This document shows, one piece after another, positions 1 through 18,891 of a stretch of 64,000 nt of DNA. The position numbers and the translations under genes are program-made. How positions within the stretch are numbered: position 1 is the first letter of the stretch; every line of letters starts with the position of its first letter. The notes under the pieces were generated by a model. It had not been told where the DNA came from, searched no databases, and saw nothing but the letters and a program-made list of their open reading frames with translations. This DNA comes from Pseudomonadota bacterium (lineage in GTDB: Bacteria > Pseudomonadota > Gammaproteobacteria > Xanthomonadales > Xanthomonadaceae), in contig JAFECB010000014.1 of NCBI GenBank assembly GCA_018242365.1, forward strand, positions 87,992 to 151,991. Reading direction: 5' to 3'.

Positions 1-157
1 CGGGACTCGGGACCCGGGACCGGGGACCCGAGTGCGCGGCGGTTGGCGTGTGAGCGGAGATTTTCATCCATGACTGGACGTCCGAACCGGACATCGGGAT
101 ACAGGCGGAGCTTCATGCTTCGGCCGGGTCCCGAGTCCCGGGTCCCGGGTCCCGGAG
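1..157. repeat. GC-rich inverted repeat upstream of pilU
   Basis: The left arm at 1-16 (CGGGACTCGGGACCCG) recurs as its exact reverse complement at 125-140. Both arms continue as iterated GGGACCC/GGGTCCC units (left to about 32, right to 157). The left arm runs to the window edge, so the stem may be longer. The last bases of the right arm (GGAG, 154-157) sit 7 nt before the pilU ATG and probably serve as its ribosome binding site. Simple GGGACCC-type repeats between genes are frequent in Xanthomonadaceae. No function is inferred. Confidence 0.75.
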
Positions 158-164
158 TTGTCCC

Positions 165-1295
165 ATGAGCAGCATCGATTTCACCTCGTTCCTCAAGCTG
201 ATGGCGCACCAGAAGGCGTCGGACTTGTTCATCACGGCGGGCATGCCGCCGTCGATGAAGGTCCACGGCAAGCTCAGTCCGATCACCCAGAACCCGCTGA
301 CGCCGCAGCAGTCGCGCGATCTGGTGCTGAACGTGATGTCGCCGCAGCAGCGCGAGGAGTTCGAAAAGACCCACGAATGCAACTTCGCCATCGGCGTGTC
401 GGGCGTGGGCCGCTTCCGCGTGAGCTGTTTCTACCAGCGCAACCAGGTCGGCATGGTGCTGCGCCGGATCGAGACCCGTATCCCGACGGTCGAGGAGCTC
501 AGCCTGCCGCCGGTGATCAAGACGCTGGCGATGACCAAGCGCGGCATCATTATCTTCGTCGGTGCCACCGGCACGGGTAAGTCCACGTCGTTGGCGTCGA
601 TGATCGGCTATCGCAATGCCAATTCGACCGGGCACATCATCACGATCGAGGACCCGATCGAATTCGTGCACAAGCACGATGGCTGCATCATCACCCAGCG
701 CGAAGTCGGCATCGATACCGACAGCTGGGAGAACGCGCTGAAGAACACCCTGCGTCAGGCACCGGACGTGATCATGATCGGCGAGGTGCGCACCCGCGAG
801 GGCATGGACCACGCGATCGCATTCGCGGAAACCGGCCACTTGGTGCTGTGCACCCTGCACGCCAACAACGCCAACCAGGCGATGGACCGCATCATCAACT
901 TCTTCCCGGAAGATCGCCGCAACCAGTTGCTGATGGACCTGTCGCTGAACCTCAAGGGTGTGGTCGCGCAGCAACTGGTGCCGACCCCGGACGGCAAGGC
1001 GCGGCGGGTGGCGATGGAGATCCTGCTCGGCACGCCGCTGGTGCAGGATTACATCCGCGACGGCGAGATCCACAAGCTGAAGGAAGTGATGAAGGAATCC
1101 GTGCAGTTGGGCATGAAGACCTTCGACCAGAGCCTGTTCGAGCTGTACCAGGCCGGCGAGATCAGCTACGAGGACGCGCTGCGCTTTGCCGACTCGACCA
1201 ACGAGGTGCGCCTGCGCATCAAGCTGGCGCAGGGCGGCGATGCCTCGACCCTGGCGCAGGGGCTTGATGGCGTGATGATCGCCGAAGCGCGCTGA
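165..1295 (+). CDS. pilU: Type IV pilus retraction ATPase accessory, PilT/PilU family
   Basis: This is a cytoplasmic hexameric ATPase that works with PilT to retract type IV pili for twitching motility. The 376-residue product has a PAS-like N-terminal domain, a Walker A loop GATGTGKST near residues 133-141, and a Walker B-type segment (DVIMIGEVRT) from about residue 201. The length and the N-terminus (FLKLM...KASDLFITAG) fit PilU rather than PilT, which is about 30 residues shorter. The ATG at 165 has GGAG 7 nt upstream, inside the GC-rich repeat. In related genomes pilT lies directly upstream; here that position is outside the window. The gene is followed by 437 bp of repeat-filled intergenic DNA, so it probably ends its transcription unit. 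Confidence 0.95.
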   Translation: MSSIDFTSFLKLMAHQKASDLFITAGMPPSMKVHGKLSPITQNPLTPQQSRDLVLNVMSPQQREEFEKTHECNFAIGVSGVGRFRVSCFYQRNQVGMVLRRIETRIPTVEELSLPPVIKTLAMTKRGIIIFVGATGTGKSTSLASMIGYRNANSTGHIITIEDPIEFVHKHDGCIITQREVGIDTDSWENALKNTLRQAPDVIMIGEVRTREGMDHAIAFAETGHLVLCTLHANNANQAMDRIINFFPEDRRNQLLMDLSLNLKGVVAQQLVPTPDGKARRVAMEILLGTPLVQDYIRDGEIHKLKEVMKESVQLGMKTFDQSLFELYQAGEISYEDALRFADSTNEVRLRIKLAQGGDASTLAQGLDGVMIAEAR

Positions 1296-1453: not shown

Positions 1454-1545
1454 GTCATTCCAGCGCTGTGTGTCCGGAGGATGTCGATCCGATCCCTCTT
1501 CGATGCCTTGCAGGTGAAGGGGATCCCTGCGTTCGCCGGGATGAC
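1454..1545. repeat. Dispersed inverted-repeat element (GTCATTCC...GGGATGAC type)
   Basis: The ends are imperfect inverted repeats: GTCATTCCAGCG at 1454-1465 against CGCCGGGATGAC at 1534-1545, with 10 of 12 positions complementary. A shorter related palindrome (GTCGGCGTAGCGCCGGC) lies just upstream near 1391. This resembles the GTCATTCC-type intergenic repeats common in many proteobacteria. Together with the structured element at 1563-1723 it fills most of the 437 bp between pilU and yqgE. No gene is seen in that interval. Confidence 0.6.
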
Positions 1546-1562
1546 GGCCGATTTGGCGAAGC

Positions 1563-1723
1563 CTTGGGGCGGTGCTGAACAAGTCCATCCGGGACTTGTC
1601 AGCGCACGCACCGTCCGGCACATGTCCGGGCGGTGCTTGCGGGAATCAATCACTTGGGTGACTGATCCCCGGACGATCACCCATGGTCGGCGGGCAGCGC
1701 CGACTGAATCGGCCTTGCCTTAG
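1563..1723 (+). mobile_element. Structured 153-bp element, copy A, upstream of yqgE
   Basis: The body at 1567-1719 is flanked by CTTG (1563-1566) and TTAG (1720-1723). It aligns along its whole length with the reverse complement of 18242-18393, sharing GCTGAACAA, TTGTCAGC, CACGC, GAATCAATCACTTG, GATCC and GGTCG blocks in the same order. It folds into successive hairpins: AAGTCC/GGACTT, GCACCG/CGGTGC, TCAC/GTGA, CGATCA/TGGTCG and a terminal GGCAGCGCCGA/TCGGCCTTGCC. Several of these pairings differ in sequence but keep pairing in the other copy. It ends 9 nt before the yqgE start codon. It could be a MITE-like element of the kind that duplicates CTAG, or a structured leader. Confidence 0.6.
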
Positions 1724-1732
1724 AATGCCGGC

Positions 1733-2299
1733 ATGGACGCGCAAGAACACGGCTTTGGCAACCACCTGCTGATCGCATTGCCGGCATTGCATGATTCCTG
1801 CTTCGAACGCAGCGTGACCCTGGTCTGCCAACACGATGGCGATGGGGCCATGGGGGTGATGGTCAATCGTGCCTCCGAGTACACGGTCGGCGAAATCCTC
1901 CAGCAGATGGGGGTGGACTGCGACAACCCGACGCTGTGCAAGCAGATCGTGCTCAGCGGTGGCCCGGTGCATCCGGAGCGTGGTTTCGTTCTTCATGACG
2001 GCGAGTGCAGCTGGGATTCCAGCCTCGATGTCGGTGGTGGTCTGTACCTGACCACCTCGCGCGACGTACTGGAGGCGATGGCGCGCGGCGAAGGTCCGCC
2101 GCGGGCCTTGGTCGCACTCGGATGCGCGGGCTGGGGCGCGGGCCAGCTCGAACAGGAAATGGTCGATGACAGTTGGCTGCTGGTCCCCAATCGCAGCGAT
2201 GTATTGTTCGACCTGCCGCTGGCGCAGCGCTGGCAGGCGGCTGCGGGCAGTATCGGTGTCGATCTGGTCAACCACGCCAGCCATAGCGGGCACGCATGA
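1733..2299 (+). CDS. yqgE: YqgE/AlgH family protein
   Basis: The 188-residue cytoplasmic protein matches the DUF179 (YqgE/AlgH) family. It has the conserved beginning in which an LIALPAL segment is followed by [10 protein letters not shown] and GVMVNR, and a central LSGGPV...RGFVLH block. AlgH was once described as an alginate regulator in Pseudomonas; its biochemical role is unsettled. The ATG at 1733 is the only good start, and no clear ribosome binding site precedes it. A TAGAAT hexamer at 1721-1726 lies so close to the ATG that transcription from it would give an almost leaderless mRNA, which is speculative. The stop overlaps the start of ruvX by 4 nt, so the two are probably co-translated. 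Confidence 0.93.
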
Positions 2300-17195: not shown

Positions 17196-17726
17196 TCAGA
17201 TACGGGCGAGGCACTCGCGATACAGCGTCAGGTCCGTGCCGCTGAAACAGCAGAACACCACCCGCTGCAGGGACTGTGCAGGAAATCCGCGCACCGTGGT
17301 CACCGCGACCCTGGTGGCCGCGCCTTTTGGATAGCCGTAGACGCCGGTGCTGATCGCGGGGAAGGCAATCGATTGCAGCCCGTGCGCCTCGGCCAGCGCC
17401 AGTGCATTGGCATAACAGGCGGCCAGCAGTTCCGGCTCACCTGCTTGCCCGCCACGCCAATACGGACCGACGGTGTGGATCACGTAGCGCGCGGGAAGGC
17501 CGTGGCCTGCGGTCAGCTTGGCCTGGCCGGTGGCGCAGCCGCCCAATTGCCGGCATTCCTCCAGCAGTCCCGGGCCGGCGGCGCGGTGGATCGCGCCGTC
17601 GACGCCGCCACCGCCGAGCAGGGACGGATTGGCGGCATTGACGATGGCATCGACGGCGAGGGTGGTGATGTCGCCCAGCATCGCCTCGATGCGCAGCGTG
17701 GAGGGCGTGGATGGGCCTGCGCTCAT
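17196..17726 (-). CDS. O-acetyl-ADP-ribose deacetylase, macrodomain family
   Basis: The 176-residue single macrodomain has the ADP-ribose-binding motifs [23 protein letters not shown] and the later loop [16 protein letters not shown]. Bacterial members hydrolyse O-acetyl-ADP-ribose or mono-ADP-ribosyl groups. The ATG at 17726 (MSAGPS) is chosen over an upstream one because it overlaps the L,D-transpeptidase stop by 4 nt. MacroD/YmdB type is the best guess. Confidence 0.9.
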
Positions 17727-18217
17727 GGATCGATCTCGATCGGTGTCGGCACCTGCACCAGATTCCACAGCGTCGTCATGTCCGCGTTCGACAACGCGAT
17801 GCAGCCGTCGGTCCAGTCATAGGGAATGGTGACGGTGGAATCTGCTGTCAACTGCAACCCGTTGGGTTGGCCGTGAATCATGATCGCGCCACCCGGCGGC
17901 ACTCCGAGTCGGCGCGCGTTGGCGCGGTCATCACGGTTCGGGTAGGACACGTGGAGGGCACGATAAAACGCACTGTCGGCCTTGCGGAAATCCAGCAGAT
18001 AGCGGCCTTCCGGCGTGCGCCGGTCGCCTTCGCGTTGCTTGTGGCCCAGCGGCGTGCCGCCGAGGCGGACGGCGAAGCGATACAGCACCTGGCCTTGGCT
18101 GATCAAGCTCAGGCTGCGTTCCGATTTGTCGACCTTGACCAGATCGACGCGGGCCTGTTGCGCACGCAGTTGCGGTACGCACAACAGCAAGCCAAGGGTC
18201 AGCAGGATCGTGCGCAT
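17723..18217 (-). CDS. L,D-transpeptidase (YkuD) family protein, YafK-like
   Basis: The 164-residue secreted protein has a signal peptide ([20 protein letters not shown]) and a YkuD catalytic domain: [28 protein letters not shown] and the active-site segment [11 protein letters not shown]. The usual YkuD consensus has SHGC before the catalytic cysteine. Here it is TDGC, closer to YafK/DpaA proteins, which act on peptidoglycan cross-links to Lpp. The ATG at 18217 is chosen because it begins the signal peptide. GGGAG lies about 10 nt upstream. Structured element copy B lies directly before the gene. Confidence 0.88.
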
Positions 18218-18237: not shown

Positions 18238-18397
18238 CTAGGGAACCTCTGAACAATTCAGAGGTTCCCGTCGACCAAGGATGGTCGACCACGGATCGAT
18301 CACGCAAGTGATTGATTCGTGTGAGCCGGGTCCGGGCCTGTACCGGACTCGGCGTGGGCTGACAACTCCAGGAAGGAGTTGTTCAGACCATCCCTAG
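18238..18397 (-). mobile_element. Structured 152-bp element, copy B, with CTAG flanks
   Basis: The body at 18242-18393 is bordered by CTAG on both sides (18238-18241 and 18394-18397). The ends form imperfect terminal inverted repeats: GGAACCTCTGAACAA against GGATGGTCTGAACAA, 12 of 15 matching. On the minus strand it contains consecutive hairpins AACTCC/GGAGTT, GTCCGG/CCGGAC, ATCAC/GTGAT, a perfect GTCGACC/GGTCGAC, and a terminal perfect 12-bp GGAACCTCTGAA hairpin. It is homologous to 1567-1719. On the minus strand it ends about 20 nt before the L,D-transpeptidase ATG. No coding capacity is seen. Confidence 0.65.
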
Positions 18398-18405
18398 GGT
18401 GCGGC

Positions 18406-18891
18406 TTACTCCGGGTCGTGCGCCGCCGAGGGTTCGTTGCTGATGGCCTCCATCCCGGTCAACGCCGCGCTGCGGAAATTCAGCGGATCGGAGATGTACG
18501 GGATCGGTGCATTGGTGCCGCCGGAGCCGGTGATCACCACGCTGCCGTAATTGAAGATGCGGCCAACAATGCTCTGGTTGACGTGCAGACTCTCGACCTT
18601 GCTGTGCCGAAGCTCCACGGTTTCGCGACGGATGAAGCCGAACTTGGCGATCACCCGCGCGCTGGTCACCGCCAGCTCGGTGGAGGCGACGTAGATCCAC
18701 GCCTTCAGCAGCAGGAACAAGCCGAAGGCGAGCACGCAGTAACCGAGAATGCCGACCGGGAACGGCAACAGCAGCGAGAGCGCGCTGCCGAGCAGCAGCC
18801 AGAACATCGCGTGCAGGTAGATGAACCAGTGGGTCCTGGCCTGCACGATCACGGTTTCGCCGGGGACGAGGACGGATTGGACGTAGCTCAC
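18406..18891 (-). CDS. PH domain-containing membrane protein
   Basis: The 161-residue protein has two adjacent transmembrane segments (about residues 25-65: YLHAMFWLLLGSALSLLLPF and GYCVLAFGLFLLLKAWIYV) followed by a bacterial PH (bPH2) domain with ELAVTSARVIAKFGFIRRETVELRHSKVESLHV and GSVVITGSGG. The function of this family is unknown. The gene is monocistronic by position; its stop lies 9 nt beyond structured element copy B. Confidence 0.85.
   Translation of the reverse strand: MSYVQSVLVPGETVIVQARTHWFIYLHAMFWLLLGSALSLLLPFPVGILGYCVLAFGLFLLLKAWIYVASTELAVTSARVIAKFGFIRRETVELRHSKVESLHVNQSIVGRIFNYGSVVITGSGGTNAPIPYISDPLNFRSAALTGMEAISNEPSAAHDPE

Follow-up and report, generated by a model that had tools for sequence, protein, structure and literature searches.

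Why should a short intergenic sequence that occurs twice, in opposite orientations, in the 64,000-nucleotide stretch of DNA analysed here (the window) keep its hairpins when the bases that build them change? A preliminary description of the window had treated copies A and B as a two-copy element whose stems vary in a compensatory manner, and had read this as selection on a folded RNA or single-stranded DNA. The two copies align end to end over 161 bases each and without gaps, the stems quoted for them are present in both, and the block GAATCAATCACTTG, described as unbroken, is intact in both. The terminal hairpin stem is likewise present; in copy A it is imperfect, and its right arm is partly ambiguous in view of a TTGCC found in relatives. 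The positions of the copies, their hairpins and the neighbouring genes are collected in Table 1.

Table 1 Copies A and B of the element, their hairpins and the adjoining genes, in window coordinates.
Feature	Position	Strand	Remarks
Copy A	1563..1723	+	Flanking 4-bp duplication TTGG (1564-1567) / TTAG (1720-1723)
Copy A, hairpin H1	1572..1605	+	5' arm inside left terminal repeat; borders counted by eye
Copy A, hairpin H2	1608..1636	+	Arms GCACCGTCCGG / CCGGGCGGTGC
Copy A, hairpin H3	1640..1671	+	Contains conserved block GAATCAATCACTTG (1643-1656)
Copy A, hairpin H4	1672..1691	+	Minus-strand loop GGG, GGA lost in copy A
Copy A, hairpin H5	1693..1719	+	3' arm forms the right terminal repeat; imperfect in copy A
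Copy B	18238..18398	-	CTAG duplication on either side (18238-18241, 18394-18397)
Copy B, hairpin H1	18356..18389	-	Minus-strand loop AGGAA
Copy B, hairpin H2	18325..18353	-	
Copy B, hairpin H3	18290..18321	-	Contains GAATCAATCACTTG
Copy B, hairpin H4	18270..18289	-	Minus-strand loop AAGGAU, closed by C-G (ANGGAN form)
Copy B, hairpin H5	18242..18268	-	Palindrome GGAACCTCTGAACAATTCAGAGGTTCC (+ strand letters); also right terminal repeat
T2SSE-domain ATPase gene, left of copy A	165..1295	+	
AlgH-like DUF179 gene, right of copy A	1733..2299	+	
YkuD L,D-transpeptidase domain gene, after copy B	17723..18217	-	
Bacterial PH domain (bPH_2) gene, before copy B	18406..18891	-	

Copy A lies between the T2SSE-domain gene, which we take to be of the PilT/PilU type (pilU), and the AlgH-like gene, presumably yqgE, and ends 9 bp upstream of the start codon of the latter. 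Three open reading frames of at least 80 aa run over copy A, each reaching past it. Copy B sits between the bPH_2 and YkuD genes, all on the same strand. The pilU and yqgE genes are 437 bp apart in the genome of the window; measured from the end of the pilU match to the start of the yqgE match, the gap is 413 bp there and 7–122 bp in the 23 other genomes of the genus with both gene matches listed. The TTAG before yqgE is likely to be the target site of the copy A insertion. Directly before this TTAG, the sequence TTGCC is also found in three relatives that lack the element at this place (L328, L331 and L340), so that the last bases of the right arm of copy A are not cleanly assigned. In these relatives the TTGCC resembles an element end, either by chance or as what is left of an older insertion. 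Another short repeat (about GCGTTCGCCGGGATGACGG) lies to the left of copy A at window positions 1521-1549, and 26–36 of its bases recur in G032 (at least 7 places), G033, G003, G015 and G014. Inverted and direct repeats of the GGGACTCGGGACCCGGGA type occupy window positions 1-160, before the first gene.

The search for further copies in the same and related genomes showed that the element is not limited to two. A blastn search with copy A found 29 places in its own genome (best non-self E 1.9e-38), and a covariance model built from 20 own-genome copies (R1) found more, at no fewer than 31 distinct places; its 54 matches there include weak opposite-strand echoes of true copies and do not equal a copy count. 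The 20 full own-genome copies align at 159–162 bp and consist of five tandem hairpins, H1 to H5, with H1 beginning in the left terminal repeat and H5 forming the right one. Copies lie between called genes, and 16 of the 28 own-genome copies are no more than 10 bp from the edge of such a gene. At L134:1428-1588 a copy ends at a tRNA gene (tRNA 1586-1658). Shortened copies (L382-L395, L145, L146 and L153) carry varied deletions of whole hairpins, often with the ends kept, and such derivatives can lose H4; these varied losses do not support a single minimal core. In G020, a genome of another family, tandem arrays at L167:1499-1913 and other places repeat a 127-bp unit of H1–H4, and in the L167 array H5 appears only after the last unit. 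A pattern scan of contigs with the 14-base block gave mostly chance occurrences among the matches listed, the useful ones being L065, L119 and L116. Searches of the open-access literature listed no description of the element.

The claim that compensatory change over several stems exceeds chance was borne out in both alignments that we examined. Compensatory change was seen at 17 of 43 predicted pairs in the 20 own-genome copies, and 23 of 32 predicted pairs had changed on both sides in a set of 70 copies (64 from the genus and 6 from elsewhere in the order) aligned with MAFFT without structure. In the larger set, pairing cells reached 95.2% compared with 81.3% in shuffles and double-changed cells numbered 298 compared with 99.0, none of 500 shuffles reached any of five covariation measures, and sliding the partner by 1–3 columns reduced pairing to 26–40%; these shuffling and sliding controls leave the relatedness of the copies in place. 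We also compared each copy with its nearest relative, leaving aside the two outermost stem pairs. At 95–99.9% identity (n = 12) there were nine one-sided stem changes and no double change, whereas at 90–95% (n = 30) there were 93 one-sided and 19 double changes, 13 of them from one Watson–Crick pair to another, where independence expects 4.0. Double changes numbered 13 against 2.9 expected at 85–90% (n = 11) and 16 against 4.2 at 80–85% (n = 7). Because the closest pairs differ only by one-sided changes, landed copies appear to decay and double changes to accumulate between lineages; we infer that selection acts in active lineages and not on each landed copy.

The element is spread well beyond its own genus. 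R1 matched 14 of 25 genomes of the genus, in which one genome holds 89 model matches (opposite-strand echoes included, as in all genus match counts) and another none. In the order, R1 matched 39 of 200 genomes and 27 of 69 genera. A wider model of 42 copies (R2), mostly GGA-holding and therefore biasing the class set slightly toward GGA, matched 72 of 369 genomes and 56 of 272 genera of the class, which is presumably Gammaproteobacteria since L065 and L119 belong to the Lysobacterales. Filtering was stricter in the order and class searches, which scored up to 14 and up to 7 candidates per genome, respectively. They yielded 51 copies, roughly the top copy per genome for part of the genomes that matched (L316 was omitted as a duplicate of L361), and 47 of these fold with exactly five hairpins common to both strands; the other four were excluded from the loop count. 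The 5' arms of these 47 copies are extensively rewritten, with 36, 41, 43, 30 and 36 distinct sequences for H1 to H5, respectively. In order and class copies whose left terminal repeat has changed, the internal 3' arm of H1 has followed it and H1 still forms, which to us is the strongest individual indication that folding is important; B-type copies of the genus have imperfect outermost H1 pairs. Since the stems have been rewritten across the order and class with the plan and the loops kept, selection on a folded nucleic acid stands as the best reading, as originally proposed, for what is now a multi-copy, MITE-type element with IS5-like ends. The five-hairpin fold is very probably under selection.

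The ends suggest how the element may move. The flanking 4-bp duplications have the consensus YTAR, and with L065 and L119 omitted, 22 of 68 copies carry a perfect duplication (shuffled mean 5.1, maximum 13 in 5000), with a mean of 3.01 of 4 positions matching compared with 2.10 after shuffling. Terminal inverted repeats are also apparent: in 49 order and class copies, again without L065 and L119, the best 16-mer end match averaged 12.7 within a copy and 10.7 in 300 random copy pairs. Searches with two 30-base end queries revealed that the two different ends of copy B match those of an annotated IS1646-family element, left and right swapped, at 19 of 20 bases each, and that the A-type end TAAGGCAATGCTGAACAAGTCC agrees at 22 of 22 bases (positions 2-23 of the 30-base query) with IS5-family elements on one Paraburkholderia and one Burkholderia plasmid. 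Within the genus, an IS5 element in L277 has the end GGAAGGTCTGAACAACTCC, the same as that of copy L151. The ends vary by lineage (GGAAGCTCTGA, TAGCAGGCTGTTGA and others) while the five-hairpin plan stays. IS5-family elements in the genus and elsewhere that share these ends are candidate autonomous partners, and the element is almost certainly a MITE with IS5 ends.

The IS5 transposase model NF033581 scored over its cut-off in 5 of 25 genomes of the genus, namely in 4 of the 8 with at least 10 model matches and in 1 of the 17 others (one-sided Fisher about 0.02, calculated by hand). Searches of the own genome, a 34-contig draft from which repeated insertion sequence copies could be missing, yielded no matching transposase, and PF13586 was not found in 6 genomes. 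The cores of five copies gave no convincing match to 19 loci bearing insertion sequences, except at L295, where an element adjoins one; the core is thus not simply a deleted copy of the insertion sequences compared. At L295 (G006, about 1297-1400) an IS5 end directly abuts an element end with CTAG common to both, as though the insertion sequence had used the MITE's duplication as its target. Insertion sequence families have YTAR or CWAR target habits, and IS701 had been guessed as a parent from its YTAR preference; it was rejected, having no end match. Copy A matched nothing among plasmids and phages, nor did two distant copies match plasmids or L128 match E. coli. A different MITE of about 150 bp is present on an unannotated Xanthomonas perforans plasmid (L275:2501-2659); its end sequence occurs at 22 places on that plasmid, and it shares the block AATCAATCACTT with the five-hairpin element.

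The plus strand, on which the preliminary description had read the element, lacks a GGA loop motif, whereas the opposite strand has it. Minus-strand GGA is found in the H1' loop in 45 and in the H4' loop in 46 of the 47 order and class copies, compared with 1, 2 and 2 of the 47 for the loops of H2, H3 and H5, respectively. H4' takes the form ANGGAN closed by C-G in 43 copies and H1' the form NGGAN closed by C-G in 34. A second set comprised 84 rows, 76 from the genus and 8 from elsewhere in the order, being the first 84 of 150 A2 rows; the remaining rows comprise echoes from the opposite strand and rows with lower scores, including some true short copies, and one row used is a cut copy. In this set each GGA site is present in 73 rows and both in 65, and variation within the two loops falls on the N positions. 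Copy A retains GGA in H1, with the minus-strand loop CGGAU; its lack of GGA in H4' weighs against the RNA reading, as does the absence of H4 from some deletion derivatives.

According to PMC4005645, RsmE binds with high affinity to a stem-borne ANGGAX hexaloop, and binding is less tight when the loop lacks the N; the CsrA SELEX consensus is given as RUACARGGAUGU in PMC7652899. Judged by loop sequence, H4' is predicted to be a tight and H1' a weaker CsrA/RsmA site, and we put the chance that minus-strand RNA binds CsrA/RsmA at about even. A CsrA gene is present in 24 of 25 genomes of the genus, and being nearly universal, it says little about the element. In copy B, 92 nt separate the two GGA sites, which counts against bridging, since PMC7652899 gives a bridging range of 10–63 nt; the same paper states that very stable stems may weaken CsrA binding.

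Gene orientation and base pairing were used to assess the strand. Co-directional neighbours were ++ in 45 cases and -- in 29 (p 0.08), which gives the GGA strand no preference as sense, and in copies A and B the GGA strand is antisense to the neighbouring genes. With orientations based on simple home-made coding calls, the 84-row set gave 29 ++, 18 --, 17 convergent and 5 divergent contexts, and divergent placement accounted for 8 of 51 in the order and class set. Model-pair counts were 104 for A.C and 79 for G.U, with the pairs chosen on the plus strand. In folded copies, the wobble counts leaned to the minus strand, at 53 compared with 22 in 28 rows (one a duplicate copy) and at 48 compared with 19 in the 26 distinct copies, 23 of the 48 being in H3. 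The lean comes mainly from H3, H1 and H5, H2 being even (6 v 5) and H4 having few (5 v 1); this strand signal is confounded because the other arm of H3 and H1 is A/C-rich. Minus-strand folding energy was lower in 64 of 77, 22 of 28 and 26 of 29 copies, but shared loops mean that these counts are not independent.

These data have to be weighed against explanations that dispense with CsrA/RsmA. Palindromes self-correct by template switching, and an ordinary IS5-type MITE without RNA function could acquire its double changes through switching between the arms during replication. The decay of landed copies, with nine one-sided and no double changes in the 12 closest pairs, is consistent with such a MITE, and the perfect A-U to U-A swap by which L139 and L140 differ (in the 90–95% band) fits template switching. 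However, template switching predicts double changes among the closest copies, where none occurred, and leaves unexplained both the constancy of GGA in two loops (45 and 46 of 47) amid rewritten stems and the fixed order of five hairpins across the class; we consider this explanation unlikely.

The hairpins might also act as DNA, in extruded cruciforms or in foldbacks of a single strand, with IHF possibly bound at H3, and so help an IS5 transposase to pair the ends or the element to be copied. The terminal repeats themselves form part of H1 and H5, H2 has no strand preference, gene orientation shows no clear one, and the block GAATCAATCACTTG of copies A and B fits WATCARNNNNTTR, which we take to be the IHF consensus. 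DDE transposases of the IS5 type, however, work on double-stranded ends, and the IHF-like block, which has G at its first position in many copies, is altered in some order and class copies that keep their GGA loops (L318 and L355). IHF sites are present in other MITEs, as stated in the consulted part of PMC10969869. On balance, a role as DNA seems distinctly unlikely. It is highly improbable that hairpins in transcripts of either direction alter mRNA stability or processing without CsrA, as with other intergenic repeats: the copies are intergenic, often within 10 bp of a gene edge (16 of 28), and divergent placement is rare in the 84-row set (5; it makes up 8 of 51 in the order and class set), but the loop motif would be unexplained, and the absence of compensated changes among the closest copies indicates weak host-level selection on landed copies.

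The explanation that we prefer, with confidence slightly above even, is an IS5-type MITE moved in trans with a five-hairpin RNA core that presents CsrA/RsmA sites. An IS5-family transposase acting in trans would move the non-autonomous element, and transcription of its minus strand would produce a five-hairpin RNA whose two GGA loops are predicted to serve as sites for the global regulator CsrA/RsmA. The effect could be either that of a dispersed decoy lowering free CsrA/RsmA or that of new CsrA/RsmA sites in neighbouring transcripts. A broader proposal, which we put forward only tentatively and regard as rather doubtful, is that of a transposable riboregulator: class-wide IS5-driven MITEs would carry a five-hairpin RNA cargo in which one CsrA/RsmA site binds tightly and the other weakly, transposition bursts would scatter decoys or new sites, and the core would outlive its carriers by swapping ends to whichever IS5-type transposase is available. 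The usual view of MITEs is that they are decayed remnants of insertion sequences, bound to one lineage. A folded core kept across a class amid rewritten stems and ends suggests selection for the fold, and if the GGA loops bind CsrA/RsmA, a mobile repeat could titrate or rewire a global regulatory network. Element-rich and element-free species within one genus offer a ready natural comparison.

Several known systems resemble the element in part. REP elements such as SMAG are intergenic palindromes in Xanthomonadales, and REP/RAYT systems share this character and the order with the element, which differs in having true duplications and terminal repeats. RAYT was rejected as the mover because it does not co-occur with the element: in G007, 26 element matches come with no match to RAYT, and in G001, which lacks element matches, a single match to RAYT falls below the cut-off. 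ERIC, Correia/NEMIS and BOX repeats, compared from their descriptions, are likewise of about 100–160 bp and intergenic, with structured transcripts and some IHF sites; no Rfam family matches the window at gathering level. Relaxed Rfam searches gave matches to tRNA/tmRNA genes beside two copies, chance rows, and the gyrA RNA motif RF01740, which the cited part of PMC2864571 describes as a candidate cis-regulator of Pseudomonas. The minus strand resembles RF01740 in having (C)GUGAG, then H2', then H1' with a GAU-type loop, and of 26 loci scanned in the genus and order, 14 gave sub-threshold matches of 27.8–41.7 bits (E 0.5 or 0.01). These always remain under the gathering score of 45, RF01740 has two hairpins and not five, and at E 0.01 none of 20 class-level loci matched. 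RF01740 may descend from this type of element, as a relic or a domesticated repeat, or may be a product of convergence. Like the Csr/Rsm decoy RNAs (CsrB, RsmY/Z and RsmU), the element has GGA in hairpin loops, including one ANGGAX, but it offers two loop sites per copy instead of many and is mobile and multi-copy. RsmU is an RsmA-sequestering sRNA of Xanthomonas with GGA motifs, and according to PMC7694677, altering all four of these motifs abolished neither binding nor function. The closest likeness in build is to IS5-family MITEs of the IS1646/NF033581 parent type, which are also short, transposase-free, multi-copy and intergenic, with IS5-like terminal repeats and 4-bp YTAR duplications. 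The element differs from them in its order- and class-wide architecture, its compensatory stems and its lineage-varying ends on a kept plan, and what appears to be new here is that an IS5-type MITE carries a five-hairpin core that is very probably under selection.
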